A stretch of DNA of 34,262 nucleotides from contig JAILDS010000168.1 of NCBI GenBank assembly GCA_024689165.1, positions 1 through 34,262 on the forward strand, written 5' to 3'. The DNA is from Clostridia bacterium. Its GTDB lineage: Bacteria > Bacillota > Clostridia > Oscillospirales > Acutalibacteraceae. This document shows, piece by piece, positions 5,189 to 15,259 of the stretch (the first letter of the stretch is position 1; each line of letters begins with the position of its first letter). The position numbers were made by a program, and so were the translations under genes. The notes beneath the pieces were generated by a model. That model did not search any database, had not been told where the DNA came from, and saw only the letters and a list, made by a program, of their open reading frames with translations.

Positions 5189-6385
5189 TCACAGAGAAAA
5201 CGGTTCAAGACTTCTTTTCAGTATCCCGTGCATACGGGCGATGGCCATGCCGTAGTTGACGACCGGCACGCCCTGCGCCGCGGCGGCGTCAAGGCGGCTG
5301 CGCATCTCGCGCTCGCCCAGCATGCAGCCCCCGCAGTGGACGATAAGGCTGTATGGCGACAGATCTTCGGGGAACCCGCGCCCGGAGGTGAACTCAAACT
5401 CCGGGCGGGCTCCGCAGAACTCTTTTATCCACCCGGGGAGCTTTACCGTGCCGATATCGTTGCACTGCCTGTGGTGAGTGCAGCCCTCCGAGATCAGGAC
5501 CCTGTCGGCGTCCGTCAGCTCCGAAAGCTTTTCGGCCCCGGCGGCAAACAGCGAAAGCTCGCCCTTGTACCGGGCGAAAAGGATGGAAAAGGACGTCAGT
5601 TTTATTTCTTCCGGCACAAGCCGCGACACAGCTCCGAACGCCTGCGAGTCCGTTATCACGAGCTCGGGTCTGACGGCGAGCGCGTCGAGAGCCCGGGAGA
5701 CCTCCGAGGGCTGACAGACCGAAAAGGTCAGGTGACGGTCGAGCAGCTCCCTCATCACCTGCTGCTGCGGCAGTATCAGCCTGCCCTTGGGCGCGCTCTC
5801 ATCTATCGGAACGACCAGCAGGGCGGAGCCGGAAGGTGACAGCAGATCGGCGACGAGCGTCCTGCGGTCCTGTTCCCACTCCCGGGCGAAATCGCCGAGG
5901 ACGCGCTTGAGCTCTTCGACCCCCTCGCCCGTCACGGCGCTTACACGGACTGTCCTGCCGCCTTTCTCATCGGCAGCGGCGGCGGACGGGGCGAGATCGG
6001 CCTTGTTTTGAGCGACGACGAAGGGCAGCCGTTTTTCCTCAAAGAGGCCGAGCAGCTCCTTTTCGGCGGGGAGCGGCTCCCTTCCCGCCTCTGTGACGAG
6101 CACGGCGATATCCGTCTCGCCGAGGGTCTTTTTCGTCCGTTCGACGCGTTTTTCGCCCAGCTCGCCGGAGTCGTCGAACCCGGCGGTGTCGATGATAACG
6201 ACGGGACCGAGCGGCAGCAGCTCCATGGCCTTCCTGACGGGGTCCGTCGTCGTGCCCGGTATGTCCGAGACGAGCGAGAGCTCCTGGGCGGTCAGGGCGT
6301 TGATAAGGCTCGACTTGCCGACGTTCATAAGCCCGAAAAAGCCGATATGTATCCTCTCTGAGGAGGGCGCGTCATTCAAACCCAT
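5189..6385 (-). CDS. hydF: [FeFe]-hydrogenase maturation GTPase HydF
   Basis: 398 aa; G1 GLMNVGKSS, DIPGTTTDPV, DTAGFDD, NKAD; C-terminal cluster ligands CTH...HCGGC; next to hydG/hydE. Confidence 0.95.
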   Translation of the reverse strand: MGLNDAPSSERIHIGFFGLMNVGKSSLINALTAQELSLVSDIPGTTTDPVRKAMELLPLGPVVIIDTAGFDDSGELGEKRVERTKKTLGETDIAVLVTEAGREPLPAEKELLGLFEEKRLPFVVAQNKADLAPSAAAADEKGGRTVRVSAVTGEGVEELKRVLGDFAREWEQDRRTLVADLLSPSGSALLVVPIDESAPKGRLILPQQQVMRELLDRHLTFSVCQPSEVSRALDALAVRPELVITDSQAFGAVSRLVPEEIKLTSFSILFARYKGELSLFAAGAEKLSELTDADRVLISEGCTHHRQCNDIGTVKLPGWIKEFCGARPEFEFTSGRGFPEDLSPYSLIVHCGGCMLGEREMRSRLDAAAAQGVPVVNYGMAIARMHGILKRSLEPFSL

Positions 6386-6388
6386 GAT

Positions 6389-7837
6389 TCAGAACCTGAA
6401 GTCCCTTCCGTTGGAATCCCTTATGTCCGCGATATGCTCGGCGCAGAGCTGCCTGACCTTTTCCTTCGGGATCTTTTCGAGCTCCTTTTTGATCAGCTCC
6501 CAGCCGAGCTCTTTCGTCTGAGCAGAGGCGTAGTCCACAAGGAACTCGGCGAGCGTCATCAGGGCGTTCGGGTGGCAGCAGTTGAGTATCTGGCCGCTCT
6601 TGCAAAGGCTCATGAACCTGTCGCCGGTCCTGCCCTCGCGGTAGCATGCGGTGCAGAATGACGGAATATGGTCGTTTTCCATAAGCCAGCGGACCACCTC
6701 GTCGAGGGTGCGCTGGTCGGAGACGTCGAACTGCTCCGTGTCGTGCGGGCGCTCCTTTTCAGCGTAACCGCCGACGGAGGTCCTCGACCCGCCGCTTATC
6801 TGCGAGATGCCGAGCTGCAGCGCCGCCCGTCTGACATTCTCGCTCTCTCTGGTGGAGATGATCATGCCCGTGTACGGCACCGCAAGGCGGATACAGGCGA
6901 TGATCTTTTCGAACATCTCGTCCGAGATCCCGCCGTCGAACGCGTCGGGATCGATATCGTCCGCCCTTTTCACCCGCGGGACGCTGATAGTGTGCGGTCC
7001 CACGCCGTGCACGGCCTCAAGATGCTCGGCGTGCATGACGAGCCCCGCGAACTCATATTTATACATTTCAAGCCCGAACAGCACGCCAAGGCCGACGTCG
7101 TCTATGCCGCCGTCCATTGCCCTGTCCATCGCCTCGGTGTGATAGTTGTAATTATGCTTGGGGCCCGTCGGGTGGAGCTTTTCATAGCTTTCCTTGTGGT
7201 ATGTCTCCTGGAAAAGGATATACGTGCCTATGCCCGCTTCCTTGAGCTTTCTGTAGTTTTCGACCGTCGTCGCGGCGATATTGACATTGACGCGCCTTAT
7301 GTCGCCGTTTTTGTGGTGGACGCCGTAAATGGTGTCTATGCACTCGAGTATATACTCTATCGGGTTGTTCACGGGGTCCTCGCCCGCCTCGATGGCGAGC
7401 CGCTTGTGGCCCATGTCCTGAAGGGCGATGACCTCGGCGCGCACCTCGTCCTGCGTGAGCTTTTTGCGCGGGATATGCTTGTTTTTCGCGTGGTACGGGC
7501 AGTAAACGCAGCCGTTGACGCAGTAATTCGACAGATACAGCGGCGCGAAAAGGACTATCCTGTTGCCGTAGTAGGCCTGCTTTATCTCTTTGGCGATCTC
7601 GAATATGCGCGCCACGCGCTCCGGGTCCTCGCAGGCAAGCAGCACGGACGCCTCTCTGTGGGTCAGCGCGGTCCCGTGCTCCGGCGCGGTCAGGTTGCCC
7701 GGACGCGCCTTTTCAAGAATGGCGTCGATGAGCTCAAGGTCGTTCTTATGCTCTTCGGCGTAGCGCAGAGTGTCTTTTATTTCTTCGTCGTTGATGAATT
7801 CGTCCGCGCAGAGGGACTTCGGGTCGTATTTATACAT
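6389..7837 (-). CDS. hydG: [FeFe]-hydrogenase maturation radical SAM tyrosine lyase HydG
   Basis: CVNGCVYC (CX3CX2C) and C-terminal CTACYREGRTGDRFMSLCKSGQILNCC auxiliary-cluster motif; ATG at 7837 with GAAAGGAATATCC RBS preferred over the tracked 7864 start. Confidence 0.95.
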   Translation of the reverse strand: MYKYDPKSLCADEFINDEEIKDTLRYAEEHKNDLELIDAILEKARPGNLTAPEHGTALTHREASVLLACEDPERVARIFEIAKEIKQAYYGNRIVLFAPLYLSNYCVNGCVYCPYHAKNKHIPRKKLTQDEVRAEVIALQDMGHKRLAIEAGEDPVNNPIEYILECIDTIYGVHHKNGDIRRVNVNIAATTVENYRKLKEAGIGTYILFQETYHKESYEKLHPTGPKHNYNYHTEAMDRAMDGGIDDVGLGVLFGLEMYKYEFAGLVMHAEHLEAVHGVGPHTISVPRVKRADDIDPDAFDGGISDEMFEKIIACIRLAVPYTGMIISTRESENVRRAALQLGISQISGGSRTSVGGYAEKERPHDTEQFDVSDQRTLDEVVRWLMENDHIPSFCTACYREGRTGDRFMSLCKSGQILNCCHPNALMTLAEFLVDYASAQTKELGWELIKKELEKIPKEKVRQLCAEHIADIRDSNGRDFRF

Positions 7838-7854
7838 GGATATTCCTTTCTCTA

Positions 7855-8916
7855 TCAGCCGCAAAACGGTTTAACGGGATCGCCCCTGTCTACGACGATC
7901 TCGCAGCCGGCGCTGCTGATCCTATCGCCGAGGCATTCCAGGCATTGAGCGGACTCTTCGCCCGTACAGATCTTGTTGTCGTAAAGCTCGTACTTCTTCC
8001 TTACCGCGATCGGCGAGAGGTTCGGCATGACCACGTTCGCGCCGTGCTCTATCCCGAGCTCGCGTCCGCGGGGATGTATCGTGCCGAGCGCGGTGGTGGC
8101 GGGCAGCAGGACCGTCGGGCAGATCACCCTGATCACGGAAAGCAGAAAGCAGGTAAGCTCCGCCGATCCCGCGGGGAAACCGGCAAAGGGCGTGTCCCTG
8201 TGCGGGATGAAGGGACCTATGCCGCACATCTCGGGTCTGAAGTCCCCGATAAAGGCGAGATCCGAGGCAAGGCATTCCGGCGTCTGGTACGGCGAGCCGA
8301 CCATCATCCCCGCTCCTACGGCAAAGCCGATCTCACGCAGGTCCTTCAGGCAGCGCAGCCTGTTGTCAAATGACATCTCCGGCGGGTGGAGCCTCGCGTA
8401 GTGCGCGGCGTCGGCGGTCTCATGCCGCAGAAGGTACCTGTCCGCCCCGGCGGCTCTCAGGCGCTCGAAGCTTTCACGGGAGCGTTCGCCCAGCGACAGC
8501 GTAACGGCGCAGTCCGGGTGCCGGCGTTTTATCTCAGCGACGGCTCCGCAGACGAACCCGTCCGTCAGAGCAGGGTCTTCCCCGCCCTGCAGTACGAAGG
8601 TTCGAAAGCCCAGCCCGTAGCCCTCGTCCGCGCAGGCGATGATCTCCTCCGCGGACAGGCGGTACCTCTCGCAGTTTTTGTTGCTCCGCCGCAGCCCGCA
8701 GTACAGGCAGTCGTTGCGGCAGCTGCTGCTGATCTCTATGAGCCCGCGAATGAAGACGCGGGCGCCGTAGACCTCGTTCCTGAGCCTTACCGCCTCGCGC
8801 CGGAGAAGCTCGCCTATGCCGGGCGTCCTGCCGTCTATGAGCGGGGCATATTCCTCGCGTTCGAGCCTGCCGTCGGCTATGAGCTTTTCGGCGAGAGCTT
8901 CCGCGGACGCGCCCAC
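7855..8916 (-). CDS. hydE: [FeFe]-hydrogenase maturation radical SAM protein HydE
   Basis: 353 aa; CRNDCLYCGLRRSN (CX3CX2C); GTG start 1 nt after upstream TGA; context with hydG/hydF. Confidence 0.93.
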   Translation of the reverse strand: MGASAEALAEKLIADGRLEREEYAPLIDGRTPGIGELLRREAVRLRNEVYGARVFIRGLIEISSSCRNDCLYCGLRRSNKNCERYRLSAEEIIACADEGYGLGFRTFVLQGGEDPALTDGFVCGAVAEIKRRHPDCAVTLSLGERSRESFERLRAAGADRYLLRHETADAAHYARLHPPEMSFDNRLRCLKDLREIGFAVGAGMMVGSPYQTPECLASDLAFIGDFRPEMCGIGPFIPHRDTPFAGFPAGSAELTCFLLSVIRVICPTVLLPATTALGTIHPRGRELGIEHGANVVMPNLSPIAVRKKYELYDNKICTGEESAQCLECLGDRISSAGCEIVVDRGDPVKPFCG

Positions 8917-8917
8917 G

Positions 8918-9169
8918 TCAGTCCTGCACGCAGGAATAGGCGGTTTTCGCGTTCACTCCGGCGAGAGCGCCGATCCTGCCGGCAAGGGCCGCGATGTCGT
9001 CCTGCGGCGCGTCTATAACGACGCTGATGATGTTCACGCCCCTCTGACGGTAAGGTATGCCCATCCTGCCGACGATATGATCGCCGTATTCGTGCAGCAG
9101 CGCGTTGAGGGCTTCGACGTCGCCGGTTTTCTCGACGATGATACTGATGACAGCGACTCTGTTTTCCAT
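8918..9169 (-). CDS. TM1266-type iron-only hydrogenase system regulator (small ACT-like protein)
   Basis: 83 aa ENRVAVISIIVEK...LLHEYGDHIVGRMGIPYRQRGVNIISVVIDA...; GGAGGATCATT RBS; first gene of the hydE-G-F operon. Confidence 0.88.
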   Translation of the reverse strand: MENRVAVISIIVEKTGDVEALNALLHEYGDHIVGRMGIPYRQRGVNIISVVIDAPQDDIAALAGRIGALAGVNAKTAYSCVQD

Positions 9170-9332
9170 AATGATCCTCCGAAATCAAAATACCGCGTCC
9201 CTGAGGACGCGGCTTGCATTCTGCGTTCCAAGCTCCCGGGCGCTGCGCTTTGTCCGATCGGTCGGCGCTGAGCCCATCCGGAGATCTTGACGCGGCCTTG
9301 CAATCAGCGGGCTTGCCGCTTCCTATCAGGTC
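9170..9332 (-). promoter_or_regulatory. Structured 5' leader of the hyd maturation operon (candidate attenuator/riboswitch)
   Basis: About 160 nt between predicted TSS and first ATG; hairpins AGCGG-caagc-CCGCT and CCGCGTCC-TCAG-GGACGCGG; duplicated TGCAAG(G)CCGCGTC allows competing pairings. Confidence 0.5.
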
Positions 9333-9338
9333 TTTTTC

Positions 9339-9367
9339 AGTCTAACATATTGTTTAATTTTTGTCAA
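9339..9367 (-). promoter_or_regulatory. Sigma-A promoter of the hyd maturation operon
   Basis: Minus strand TTGACA (9362-9367), 17-nt spacer, TAGACT (9339-9344). Confidence 0.75.
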
Positions 9368-9476: not shown

Positions 9477-12400
9477 TTATTTCCCGAATATCGAGGCTAT
9501 GAAGGCAAAGAGGCGTTTGAAGAACGCGAGCAGCGACTGGAAGAGGTTGAAGCCCTGGCTCACTGCGCCGCCGATCTCGGAACCGGTGCCGTACATACTC
9601 AGCTGGTTGAGCATGTTGTTGAACGTCGTCATATCGCCGCTGGTGATACCCGCCGCGAGCGCGGTGAAGAGATCCTGCAGGGCGAAATCGACGTTGTTGA
9701 ACTTCATGGCAAGGTTGTTGGTGGTGGGCATGATCTTGCGCATGATCTCGACGATATACTTCATCACGTAGTCGGGCACCATGTGCTCCTGGGCGAAGGC
9801 CTGGATCGTGTAGACCACGACCCTGAGCGTATCGTCGTCGAAGCCGTCAAGGTGGCGGAGCTGGGTGAGGAAGTCGCAGAGGTTGTCCGCGTTTTTAGTC
9901 ATGAACAGGACCTGCGTGACAAGTCTGAACGCCGCGGTGAAGAGGTCGGCGCCGCCGCCGGACTCAACGATGACCATATCCGTCCTGTTGTTCTGAGGCA
10001 CGGAGGTCTTCAGTCTGAGTGTGCCCGCGCAAAGGGTGGTAAGGTCGATGTACGGCAGCGCGAGATTGAGCTGTGCGCCGGTCTCGGAATCGGTGTAGAC
10101 GGTTATGGAGCCGCCGATATTGGACTCGAGCAGGGAGTTGAGGAGGTTGTTGACGTCGATGTCCAGCGGGACGGCAAGGTTCAGGTCCATGCCGCCGATG
10201 TTCAGGTTGGCGAGCAGCCCGTTGATAAGGTCGTAGGCGTTGAAGATGGGCTTGACCGCGTCGAGCAGGACGTAAGCCGGATGTACAAGGTCGTTTATGA
10301 CCGTATTCAGACCGCCGATGGTAATGAAGAACATCAGGTTCGGGATCCTCGACAGCAGCTCCTCGATCGGGTTGTCGATAAGCTCCTCTGCAAGCTGGAT
10401 CAGCGGGTCGATGAAGTAGTAGATGGAGTTTCTGTTGCCCCTCATCACGTTGGCGTTGGAGCTGTCGGTGATGAGCTCGCCGCCGGAATACTTCAGGGCG
10501 GTGGTGTTGGCGTAGACCTCGGTATAGCTGGCAGCCGGCGCGTCAAGAGCGTCCCAGAGCGGAGCGAGAGAGTAGTAGTAGCCGGCGTAGGAGGCTATAT
10601 TGATAAGTTTGTAGATGGACAGGTCTCTGTCGTAGAACAGGAAGTCGAACACGACGGACAGCGGCGAAAGAACGGCGCAGAGGATGCTCTCGAAGATCTC
10701 AAGGTTGTACTTGAAGACGATCGTCGAAAGGTCGGCGTTCTTGTCGAAGCCTTCCTCGACGCTGATGACCCTGCCGTTGTATTTAGCGTGGAAGGGGTTG
10801 TCGATGTCGGTAACGGCGCCGGACTCATCCTTGATCACTTTGATGAAGCCCATCGAGACGTAGTCGATGCCGTTGGTCTCGCAGTAGTCCTGCGTAGCCT
10901 GCTGCCAGGTGGCTATCGAATGCTCATAGATGGTCTCGGTGATCGGGGTCATGCCGTCAGGACCGTACTGGATGTTGCCCTCATCGTCATAGATGTAGCG
11001 GGTCTTTTCCTCCATGATGTGGTTGCCGTCGGCGTCGTAGATATACTCGCCGTCGGAATTGGTGGCGTAGACCATCACCGGAATGGGTATCTTGTTGCCG
11101 TCGCCGTCGAGAACATACGTGCCGTCGGCGTTGGTCCGGTACTCGACCGGGTAGAACACGTCGCCCCAGGAGGAAACGCCCGTGGAGGACAGGTATTTAT
11201 AGAAATCGGAGGCCTGGACGAGGCTCTGCGACACGCCCCACTTCGTGCCCATGCGCTGGTTGACCTGGGCGACGAACTGCTGCGCCGCGTAGGCGGTGGA
11301 CATGTCGGAGTAGAGCACGTTGCGAACGATGTTGTCAAGGTCGAACATCTCGCTCGTAAGCTTATAGACGTTGCCCAGAGCCAGCGACAGCAGGAGCCCG
11401 GCGTAGGTGTCGTTGACGTACTGGTTGGCGAGGTTGCAGAGCAGGCCGTTTATGCCGCCCTCAAGGCCCTTGACCTTGATCATATCGAGCACGTTGTCAA
11501 TGAGCTGGCCGACGTTCTCAACAAGATATTTCGCGTCCTTGCGGGTCCAGACGGAGGAGTACTCGACCGCGTTGCCGAAGGTCTTGTCCGGGTTGATGGT
11601 GTCGGACAGGAGTATCTCATCGTAGTAATTGACTCTGTCGAGCGGGTATGTATACGCAGTCCCGGCGCCGAGACTGCCGTGCTCGTTGGTCGAGAAGATC
11701 ATCAACAGCGCGCAGATGGCGTCGTCTGCGTGGTAGTTGATATTGTATACGAAATCGCCGATGGTGTAGCCCGAGAACAGGACCTTCTGCGGGTCGAGCC
11801 CGAAGCACTGGAGCAGGCCGTACTTCATGTAGGCGTTCTCGATATCCGCACGCTCGCCGCAGGACGTCGTCGTTGTCGGCAGATAGCTGTTGTCGGGCGA
11901 CAGATACCTGTACTGCAGGGCGCCGAACAGGAACCGGAGCACGTACAGCAGCACCATACCCTGCTGCGTCGCGCTGACCGAAAGCGTTCCGAAAAACTCG
12001 CTGGACGAGGTGTACGGCGTGCCCATTTCGATGAGCTTCCTGTCCTGGAGATGAGGCAGCTTGTACGTGACCTTTGTCGTGTCGTAGACGACGTACTCAA
12101 ATGTGCATTCCGCGCTTCTGCCCAGGTGCGCCTGAGTGTTGGCGTTGAATTCATCGCTGTCGGGGCTGACCGCCACCCACACGTTGTCCCTCAGCTTGTT
12201 CGGGTACGCGGTCGGATTTGCCTCATAGGCGTCGGAGCCGCCGAGGACGACCACCGAGTTGTCGGAATTGCCGTAGGCCACGACCTTCTTGGTGTTGTTG
12301 CTTACCTCCTCGACGCCGGTGTCGTAGGTCATCTTGACGAACCTGGTGAGTATGTCGTCGACGGAGTCGAAGCTCATCTTCAGCAGGCTGCTCAGGCGCA

Positions 12401-15140
12401 GGCCGTCGCCCGACCAGGGGCCGAGGGCGCCGAAGCCGATCTCGAGCTGGATATCGTAAAGTATCTCGTTGACATTGTAGGTGGCGTAATTGCCGTTGAC
12501 CTTGACGTTCTTGCCGACAAGATATGCAAGGTTGGGCAGGAGCTTGCAGATAGAGCCCAGCGGGTCCTCGAGCACGGTGTATTCGAGCCATGAGATGATG
12601 GGCCCGAGCACGTCGTTGATGATGGACGTCCTGGCGTTGACGGCGCGGTTGCCGTTGTTGTATCTGCTGTCGCCTTCATAATTGCCGCTGCTGTTGATGG
12701 AGCCCCACCTGAGGTATGCGTGCTCGATATACATCTGGTAGCTCAGATACCTGCCGCCCTGGGAGGTGTGCCACCATGAAAGATCTATCGGCGTATCGCC
12801 CGTAAGGTCGTCCTGCTCTTCGTTGCCGGTACGCGCTCTGTAGGGTCTCGCATTGTAGTTCGAGTATTCGGTAAGGCCGAGTGTCTTGAACAGCGGGATG
12901 ATTATCTTCTTGTAGCCCTCGAGCTCGTCAAGGAAGAGGTGCGCTGCGAGAGAGCCTACGCCAATGCTTATGGTATTGAGGTCCTGCGTTGTGAACGCGA
13001 CCGCGAGCACGGTGCGCAGACCGAAGAGCATTATCGAAAGAGCGTTCTGGAAATCCTCGGCGGTGCCGTCGAGATACCAGTCCATAAGATCCCAGTCGAC
13101 GTTGTCCCAGCTGTCGCCGGCGGCGTAGAGTACGTCGTGGACCTGCTGGAACTTGGCGGGTACGGACGAACCGAGATCGCCCGAGCCGTCGGGAGCTATA
13201 ACGTGCTCGGCAAGGAGCCTGGGCCTGAAGTAGACGTGGTTGTCGTTGATGACGTTGTTGATAAGATTGTTCGCGATCCCGGAAAGCGCGCTCGCCTTGT
13301 CCTCGACGAAGTTGGGTATGGTCTCCTCGAACAGATTGGCGATCATCGGGTAGAGAAGCTCCATGAGCTTGTTGACTATGCCGCCGGTATAGAGCTTGCT
13401 CTTGAGTAAGAGCTGCACGAGCTCCTTCGGGGTCTTGTAGCCCTGGCCGTAGACGTTCGAGTGCAGGAACATAGCGCTCGTCGTGGGAAGGAACTCGCGG
13501 ATGGTCGCGCCGAGCTCCTCGTTTTCCATCAGGGCGTCGAAGCGTTCGATGAAATCGGCTATGCGCACGTCGTTCACGGTATAGCCGCCGTCCGTCTCAT
13601 TGGCGCGGACGATCCTTGTGGGATAGGTCGAGTTCGGCTGCGCCAGCTGCGCCATGTTCGCAAGCGAACCCATGCGCAGCGGTCCGAAAACGGCGTTGAG
13701 CACGTCGGCGTGATAGCCGGTGTTGTAGTTGGTCAGAGCGTAGTAGCGGCTCGTGAAGGTCGTGGCGGCGGAGTCGTGGGCAAGCTCGTAGTTGTTCGAC
13801 TGCTTCCATGAATCGATAAGGCTCCAGAAGCTCTGGTTGTCCTCGGCGTATTCGGTGGAGCAGAGCTTGAGGAAGTTGTAGCTCGCCGCAGCGGCGTCGG
13901 TGTCCGTGGTGACGGACAGGCCTGCGGCCCTGCCGCCGTGGGCGTTGAAATCCGCGTTATTTACGAAATAGGAATAGTTGCTCTCCTCGCTGATGGCGTC
14001 TGCGTACTCGGGCAGGTACGCAACGGCCTCGGAGGCGAGGGTAGCGATCGAGTTGTCCGCGTCGAACGAGAACTGGGCCTTGGTGCCGGTCTCGGTGTCG
14101 AAGGTCCTGTCGTACCGTATGCCGTAGACCGCCGTTATCGTGTCGAAGCCGCCGTTCCAGTCGTCGTTGAGACCGTAGACGGGATCGTCGTCCTCGTCGA
14201 GGGCGGAGTTGACCGTTTCATGGTAGGCGAGGATCGCGGAATCAAGGTCGGTGGTGTCGACAAAGTAGAATCTGTGGAACCAGTTGCCGGAGTTGATCAG
14301 CGTGGCGTTGCCCAGGAAGTACTGGATGATTGTCGCGTAGCTGAAGAAGCTCTTCGCGTCCTCATGATGGAACGGAAGGCGCTCGTCGGTAAGGATGACG
14401 GACGGGATCCTGTAGTTGTTCTCCTCAGAGGGCATGTTGCGTTCCGTGAGCGCAACGACGTCGGAAGTGTACGACCCATCGAGGATGTCGGCGAGAAGCT
14501 GATTGTACCTCAGAAGGTCGGCGTAGGAATAGTCGGCGCTGTGGTTCTCGACGTCCTGCTCCGTGCCGAAGGACACGAGCTTGCCGTAGTTGTCGACAAA
14601 GCCGTACTCGTTCTCACTTTCGTCATAGAAGACCTTGTAGGGCACGTTATAAGTCTCGCCGCCGACGAAGACTCTGTTGACGTCCATCCCGCTGAAGCGG
14701 GTGTCGAGCTGCGAGACGACCTCCTTGTAAAGCAGGTCGGGAGAGTACAGCCCGGTGCCGTATTCGGTCGAACGGATAGCTTCAAATATGGTATAAAATC
14801 TGTTCGCCGCTTTCAGGATGGAGTTGTTCGTGTCGTCCGTCGCCTTTACGGTGTGGACGTAAACGAAAGAGTGCGCCGTGGACGAAAAGCCCTCGGTCTC
14901 ATACTCTTCGACGCTGCCGTCGTCGTTGAGCACGCTCTCCGTCGAGCTGCTCGCTTTCTCGTTTTTGATCTGATAGTGGTCGAGCGTGCGGACCCACTCA
15001 ACCTTGAGGAAGTTCGCGAGCTCGTCGTACTGGCTGTTCAGGTCCGCGTCCGCCGCGAAAGCGTATACGCCCGCGGAGACGGGCATAACGAGGATGAGCG
15101 CGGCGAGGAAGACGCTGAGCAGTTTTTTCATGGTCTTCAT
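9477..15140 (-). CDS. Giant secreted protein (about 1887 aa) of unknown function
   Basis: Continuous ORF; start reassigned to ATG 15140 (MKTMKKLLSVFLAALILVMPVSAGVYAFAAD) with AAAAGGAGACAACC RBS; clear signal peptide, promoter and terminator; no domain recognised by eye. Confidence 0.85.
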   Translation of the reverse strand: MKTMKKLLSVFLAALILVMPVSAGVYAFAADADLNSQYDELANFLKVEWVRTLDHYQIKNEKASSSTESVLNDDGSVEEYETEGFSSTAHSFVYVHTVKATDDTNNSILKAANRFYTIFEAIRSTEYGTGLYSPDLLYKEVVSQLDTRFSGMDVNRVFVGGETYNVPYKVFYDESENEYGFVDNYGKLVSFGTEQDVENHSADYSYADLLRYNQLLADILDGSYTSDVVALTERNMPSEENNYRIPSVILTDERLPFHHEDAKSFFSYATIIQYFLGNATLINSGNWFHRFYFVDTTDLDSAILAYHETVNSALDEDDDPVYGLNDDWNGGFDTITAVYGIRYDRTFDTETGTKAQFSFDADNSIATLASEAVAYLPEYADAISEESNYSYFVNNADFNAHGGRAAGLSVTTDTDAAAASYNFLKLCSTEYAEDNQSFWSLIDSWKQSNNYELAHDSAATTFTSRYYALTNYNTGYHADVLNAVFGPLRMGSLANMAQLAQPNSTYPTRIVRANETDGGYTVNDVRIADFIERFDALMENEELGATIREFLPTTSAMFLHSNVYGQGYKTPKELVQLLLKSKLYTGGIVNKLMELLYPMIANLFEETIPNFVEDKASALSGIANNLINNVINDNHVYFRPRLLAEHVIAPDGSGDLGSSVPAKFQQVHDVLYAAGDSWDNVDWDLMDWYLDGTAEDFQNALSIMLFGLRTVLAVAFTTQDLNTISIGVGSLAAHLFLDELEGYKKIIIPLFKTLGLTEYSNYNARPYRARTGNEEQDDLTGDTPIDLSWWHTSQGGRYLSYQMYIEHAYLRWGSINSSGNYEGDSRYNNGNRAVNARTSIINDVLGPIISWLEYTVLEDPLGSICKLLPNLAYLVGKNVKVNGNYATYNVNEILYDIQLEIGFGALGPWSGDGLRLSSLLKMSFDSVDDILTRFVKMTYDTGVEEVSNNTKKVVAYGNSDNSVVVLGGSDAYEANPTAYPNKLRDNVWVAVSPDSDEFNANTQAHLGRSAECTFEYVVYDTTKVTYKLPHLQDRKLIEMGTPYTSSSEFFGTLSVSATQQGMVLLYVLRFLFGALQYRYLSPDNSYLPTTTTSCGERADIENAYMKYGLLQCFGLDPQKVLFSGYTIGDFVYNINYHADDAICALLMIFSTNEHGSLGAGTAYTYPLDRVNYYDEILLSDTINPDKTFGNAVEYSSVWTRKDAKYLVENVGQLIDNVLDMIKVKGLEGGINGLLCNLANQYVNDTYAGLLLSLALGNVYKLTSEMFDLDNIVRNVLYSDMSTAYAAQQFVAQVNQRMGTKWGVSQSLVQASDFYKYLSSTGVSSWGDVFYPVEYRTNADGTYVLDGDGNKIPIPVMVYATNSDGEYIYDADGNHIMEEKTRYIYDDEGNIQYGPDGMTPITETIYEHSIATWQQATQDYCETNGIDYVSMGFIKVIKDESGAVTDIDNPFHAKYNGRVISVEEGFDKNADLSTIVFKYNLEIFESILCAVLSPLSVVFDFLFYDRDLSIYKLINIASYAGYYYSLAPLWDALDAPAASYTEVYANTTALKYSGGELITDSSNANVMRGNRNSIYYFIDPLIQLAEELIDNPIEELLSRIPNLMFFITIGGLNTVINDLVHPAYVLLDAVKPIFNAYDLINGLLANLNIGGMDLNLAVPLDIDVNNLLNSLLESNIGGSITVYTDSETGAQLNLALPYIDLTTLCAGTLRLKTSVPQNNRTDMVIVESGGGADLFTAAFRLVTQVLFMTKNADNLCDFLTQLRHLDGFDDDTLRVVVYTIQAFAQEHMVPDYVMKYIVEIMRKIMPTTNNLAMKFNNVDFALQDLFTALAAGITSGDMTTFNNMLNQLSMYGTGSEIGGAVSQGFNLFQSLLAFFKRLFAFIASIFGK

Positions 15141-15259
15141 GGTTGTCTCCTTTTCCGTATATGGTCGGTATGATTGTACTGTTTCTCTCCCGGGGCGGCC
15201 CGGCGTCGGAGCAGGCTCCGCGCGCGGACGCATTTCGGGCGACACTTTTATACAGTGCC

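Follow-up and report, generated by a model that had tools for sequence, protein, structure and literature searches.

What controls the [FeFe]-hydrogenase maturation operon in the window (the whole stretch of 34,262 nucleotides analysed here), and does the leader ahead of it act as a regulatory RNA? To our knowledge, little is known about the regulation of [FeFe]-hydrogenase maturation. The operon lies on the minus strand, and begins with a gene of the TM1266 family, a conserved protein annotated as a putative iron-only hydrogenase system regulator (8918-9169, start codon at 9169; TIGR03959, 107.6 bits; PF21699). It is followed by hydE (7855-8916; TIGR03956, 530.8 bits), hydG (6389-7864; TIGR03955, 905 bits), and hydF (5189-6385; TIGR03918, 527 bits). 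A solved relative of TM1266, PDB 2nzc, is annotated merely as a hypothetical protein. Directly upstream lies a 1922-codon frame (9477-15245, minus strand), apparently secreted and with no NCBIfam match, and a strong 15-pair terminator-like hairpin (9436-9404) is found past its end. Based on comparison with orthologous leaders, we consider it probable that the window leader is a divergent member of an RNA class which controls TM1266, hydE, hydG, and hydF via transcription attenuation.

Architecture of the window leader

The leader starts from a sigma-70-type promoter on the minus strand, TTGACA-17-TAGACT (9367-9339), with TTGACA at 9367-9362 and TAGACT at 9344-9339, a 10/12 match with TG preceding the -10 box. 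The transcript is expected to start at about 9332, directly ahead of the hairpin motif described below. The initial annotation had placed this promoter here and had pointed to a direct repeat, whose far copy TGCAAGGCCGCGTC (9302-9289) and near copy TGCAAGCCGCGTC (9218-9206) could both pair with a single downstream arm GGACGCGG (9200-9193). The promoter, both copies, and the arm are present, and all the coordinates checked agree with the minus-strand sequence. The terminator-like hairpin that it had described just before the ribosome-binding site, GCCGCGUCC-UCAG-GGACGCGGU with a U-rich tail (9213-9181), is far more stable than shuffled sequences: the hairpin itself (9213-9192) has 9 pairs and a folding energy of -18.4 kcal/mol (z -4.8), and 0 of 200 shuffles are as stable. 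Downstream of the hairpin come ATTTTGATTT and then the ribosome-binding site GGAGG of the TM1266 gene (9180-9176). The T-run of this terminator is interrupted.

Two more hairpins named by the initial annotation were also found. The stem GGGC..GCGC/GCGC..GCCC (9275-9238) forms a linker hairpin, for which no counterpart was seen in orthologous leaders. The second, AGCGG-caagc-CCGCT (9320-9306), had been taken for a separate hairpin and turns out to be part of a conserved, sensor-like 5' hairpin (9330-9296). The whole leader folds no better than its shuffles (z -0.76), so that folding energy alone is no proof of structure and the case rests on conservation.

A hairpin motif in leaders of TM1266 genes

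Of 300 genomes from the window's family, 145 contain TIGR03959 (TM1266), and 110 of the corresponding upstream regions were fetched. By a regular expression and inspection, a shared motif was found in about 64 of these 110 orthologous TM1266 leaders, the window's included; the motif leaders were chosen by eye, so the counts derived from this set are descriptive. Most leaders outside operon interiors share one promoter-proximal element, in which CUGA is followed by a variable stem of 3-4 bases, two purines, a second stem-loop, two bases (often GA or GC), the other strand of the stem, and GAAAGGYGC, with a terminator coming after it just ahead of the ribosome site. The predicted plan of the class is a hairpin with 3 bp, a 2x2 internal loop, 3 bp, another 2x2 internal loop, and a terminal stem, with AAGG in the last strand. 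In 28 of 60 orthologous leaders, CUGA comes 6-14 nt after the end of a predicted -10 box, which makes the motif the extreme 5' end of the RNA in those leaders. In the other leaders, inspection by eye often found a second, upstream copy of the motif occupying the gap between promoter and CUGA. Tandem copies within one leader are seen in L101, L109, L058, and L015.

Covariation was looked for in orthologous TM1266 leaders and is present. The first alignment, from which model R1 was built, comprises 35 members with the window left out; 92.8% of its cells are paired, 30 cells carry double changes, two-sided changes occur in all five pairs, and no shuffle or slide comes close. The three stems, named P0, P1, and P2 from the closing end inwards, covary at a level matched by 0 of 500 shuffles, a count that overstates significance because the sequences are related. 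In P0 (CCU/AGG), the pair 1-51 changes from C-G to U-A in 9 sequences, with 10 unpaired, and the other two pairs vary hardly at all. R1 was then run on 80 TM1266 loci gathered by protein similarity, a set largely but not wholly separate (L148 and L023, at least, are one contig). Matches were found in 46 of the 80 loci, one of them from Lactobacillaceae; every match is in sense orientation, with a distance of 55-232 nt to the TM1266 frame downstream. The alignment of these matches, which is fitted to the model, has 95.3% paired cells, 69 two-sided changes, and a score of 0.70, with 0.13 as the maximum on sliding. When all motif types were aligned together, the registration was poor, and no model was made from the result.

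The motif is accompanied by a terminator. A terminator-like hairpin lies downstream in 61 of the 64 motif leaders, versus 23% when the downstream part is shuffled. Furthermore, the tail of the motif (AAGGYGC) pairs better with the 5' arm and loop of the terminator in its own leader than with those from other leaders (-8.2 versus -6.9 kcal/mol, sd 0.24; 0 of 2000 permutations), and pairing of the tail with the terminator 3' arm gives no conserved signal across the motif leaders. AAGG is also part of P0, and therefore folding of the motif and formation of the anti-terminator should exclude each other. These sequence comparisons support a transcription attenuator in which the predicted terminator and the alternative pairing are conserved in relatives.

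The window follows the same arrangement, with a terminator whose 5' arm is complementary to the tail sitting between the motif and the TM1266 start. The anti-terminator tail AAGGCCGCGUC (9299-9289), which includes the conserved AAGG, can pair with the 5' arm at 9210-9204 (AGG.CGCG/CGCG.CCU, -10.2 kcal/mol, one mismatch). It pairs better with the 3' arm at 9200-9193, forming 7-8 bp at -14.4 kcal/mol and leaving the motif intact; over the whole leader, that state is about 8 kcal/mol less stable than the terminator state. The alternative pairing originally proposed, far copy with downstream arm, thus exists, whereas the partner conserved among orthologues is the 5' arm of the terminator and not the 3' arm.

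The window copy and the distribution of the class

The window copy of the motif is a 35-nt hairpin (9330-9296, minus strand), CCU-GA-UAG-GA-AGCGG(caagc)CCGCU-GA-UUG-CA-AGG, with P0 at 9330-9328/9298-9296, P1 at 9325-9323/9303-9301, and P2 at 9320-9316/9310-9306. The 2x2 loop between P0 and P1 is followed by a tandem GA loop between P1 and P2, and P1 consists of one A-U and two G.U pairs (U.G, A-U, G.U). The minimum free energy fold of CCUGAUAGGAAGCGGCAAGCCCGCUGAUUGCAAGG is (((..(((..(((((.....)))))..)))..))), which equals the consensus plan; a strong member of the class, CCUGACACAAAGAUACGUUCUGCGUGAAAGG, folds as (((..(((..(((.....)))..)))..))), a plan common to the window copy. The CUGA and AAGG closing ends, all three stems, and both 2x2 purine loops are present, as in the motif definition.

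The window copy was missed by R1 when the window was searched. A second model, R2, built from 52 matches of the R1 search on the 80 loci with the window left out, ranks it first in the 34 kb with 11.4 bits (E 0.38), with a chance match close behind at 11.2 bits; searched against the leader alone, it reaches E 0.0042. A hand-written descriptor, composed with the sequences already seen, gives the window copy a score of 11, and a score of at least 9 occurs only there within the whole window. Assignment of the window leader to the class as a putative divergent member draws jointly on where the copy lies, how it folds, its conserved ends, and the terminator downstream of it. Other matches were set aside. 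An R1 match in the window's own genome (C165, 22.9 bits) lies antisense within an 854-codon frame, and short own-genome matches to the window leader fall inside coding sequence. A DNA search of 60 relatives returned a sole match to the window leader (G051, L002:1501-1569; 77% over 67 nt); it is antisense to the leader of what appears to be a sugar kinase gene and is probably due to chance.

Across 391 Clostridia genomes, all 21 strong matches (E <=1e-4) fall in [FeFe]-hydrogenase maturation operons, where they precede TM1266 in most cases, or hydG, hydE, hydF, or an aspA-hydF pair; none of these strong matches lies ahead of the structural gene hydA. This search scored 18 candidates per genome, so that absence of the motif there means little. 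A fuller search of 34 genomes, selected as carriers of the motif, gave a single match at E 0.02 in 33 of them; in the remaining one, a second copy with its own terminator precedes hydE-hydF. Also rejected were motif matches in G511 and G474, apparently intragenic, and in G368 (C87) and G357 (C69), where the neighbouring genes are unrelated.

Some copies occur in other settings. At L163:4585, L187:3799, and L201:3886, an additional weaker copy stands before hydG, its 3' end running into AAAGAAAGGA, which is likely the ribosome site; these hydG copies suggest a translational version of the control. G377 lacks a HydG match; there the motif, together with a terminator, lies between a HydA-like C-terminus and an operon that encodes a TM1266 paralogue, a NuoE-type subunit, and a membrane protein. 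By eye, motif-like leaders were also noted in G411 and G688 before TM1266 paralogues with ABC transporters. The loci of these paralogues with an apparent motif outside hydEGF are L142 (G411 C1:2991778), L144 (G688 C88:6321), and L266 (G377 C30:4394). A gene for a FecCD-like permease follows TM1266 at L122, L125, and L196, the last being from Loigolactobacillus rennini, where hydE is found further downstream. At L126, L129, and L136, the motif precedes TM1266 and then a divergent HydG-like protein (MNFLEKYQKEFAEYDKLDHDF...).

Mechanism, effector, and known systems

We propose the following mechanism for the leader. When P0, P1, and P2 are folded, the last stem would sequester AAGG, the terminator would form, and transcription would halt before TM1266. 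When the hairpin is released, AAGG and the following nucleotides would capture the terminator 5' arm by base pairing, and transcription would continue into the operon. In this scheme, a trans factor would have to stabilise or open the hairpin, the candidates being the TM1266 protein encoded in the operon and a small molecule connected with H-cluster assembly. Sequence comparison establishes the predicted hairpin, the terminator, and the complementarity between them, from which we infer that hairpin and anti-terminator exclude each other in time and that the folded state is OFF. The layout of an attenuator or riboswitch, already suggested by the initial annotation, is supported by the covarying stems, the conserved terminator, the complementarity of tail and 5' arm, and the lack of an Rfam match.

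Two less regulated readings of the window leader have to be weighed against attenuation. That the class is real and the window copy a chance resemblance or decayed remnant, leaving a simple terminator or translation-blocking hairpin, would fit the low model scores, the weak P1, and the interrupted T-run. We regard it as unlikely: the copy follows the promoter at the position seen in other members and folds like them, it retains CUGA, AAGG, and both purine loops, the TM1266 gene after it is likewise preceded by a terminator, and the descriptor score of the copy is reached by 0 of 2000 leader shuffles. Still harder to credit is an ordinary leader with chance repeats and hairpins and no regulation, which the unremarkable folding energy of the whole leader and its G+C-rich sequence would allow and which the conservation and covariation among relatives speak against.

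As the effector in attenuation itself, TM1266 protein and a small molecule have about the same probability. In a protein-dependent attenuator, TM1266 would bind the hairpin, often in tandem copies, and autoregulate its operon as PyrR, HutP, and TRAP do, which is quite conceivable while falling short of probable. All 20 motif genomes tested from families other than the window's carry TM1266, versus 102 of 128 hydG genomes. Of 38 genomes with both hydG and TM1266, 9 have the motif next to TM1266, and of 26 with hydG and no TM1266, 1 has a motif (Fisher p 0.04); these co-occurrences are confounded by phylogeny. That one genome, G336, has the motif before hydG on a contig cut off within hydF, and its TM1266 may be absent from the assembly only. 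The copies before TM1266 paralogues in non-hydEGF operons (G377 and, by eye, G411 and G688) and the tandem copies in several leaders point the same way. Against it, TM1266 has no known RNA-binding domain, and a detectable motif is missing from many TM1266 genomes, as seen with a model that is not fully sensitive. The co-occurrence also fits a riboswitch with TM1266 in its regulon, a reading that we hold to be likewise plausible without being the expected outcome, in which the hairpin itself would control the terminator by direct binding of a ligand such as Fe(II), an H-cluster precursor, a product derived from SAM, or another small molecule or ion. The compact purine-rich internal loops with near-invariant nucleotides, the existence of terminator and ribosome-site versions, the tandem copies, and a regulon of a single pathway are in its favour, while no motif genome is clearly without TM1266 and no unrelated transporter or enzyme gene hints at a ligand. 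More tentatively, we suggest an RNA-protein pair, in which TM1266 would sense the state of H-cluster assembly, bind the leader hairpin, and thereby act on termination and translation, its targets being the maturation genes, the TM1266 gene itself, and related hydrogenase and transporter operons.

The RNA appears to be a new class within a known kind of cis-regulatory leader RNAs, a rating that leaves room for prior description. In Rfam 15 (4227 families), neither the window nor 20 motif loci had a match at the gathering score, and the initial annotation, which had not recognised the leader as a SAM, THF, Moco, cobalamin, or T-box RNA, agrees with this result for the window; searches of the window and relatives at weak thresholds gave unrelated matches only. 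Targeted literature searches, covering the main text of openly available journal papers, brought up no description of such an RNA, and hydrogenase is not mentioned in the main text of the large RNA-discovery papers covered. An RNA class found almost only at hydrogenase maturation genes would provide a regulator, a site delimited to about 35 nt, and termination as an easily measured output, by which the signal of H-cluster demand and the role of TM1266 become directly testable.

Metabolite riboswitches with an intrinsic terminator, such as the Moco RNA and preQ1-I, are similar in having a structured 5' leader, a terminator 5' arm that can pair with the sensor domain, and an operon devoted to one cofactor pathway. 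In contrast to them, the motif described here is a single hairpin with two 2x2 internal loops and stands outside all Rfam families. The PyrR, HutP, TRAP, and LicT/RAT attenuators share with it a short, sometimes tandem hairpin that acts with terminator and anti-terminator and adjoins the gene of a small putative regulatory protein; unlike their proteins, TM1266 falls in a family of its own, and RNA binding is putative here. TM1266 gave a weak match to NikR, the similarity being to the NikR C-terminal domain, and differs from it in that its 83 residues span that domain only, with no room for the DNA-binding part of NikR.
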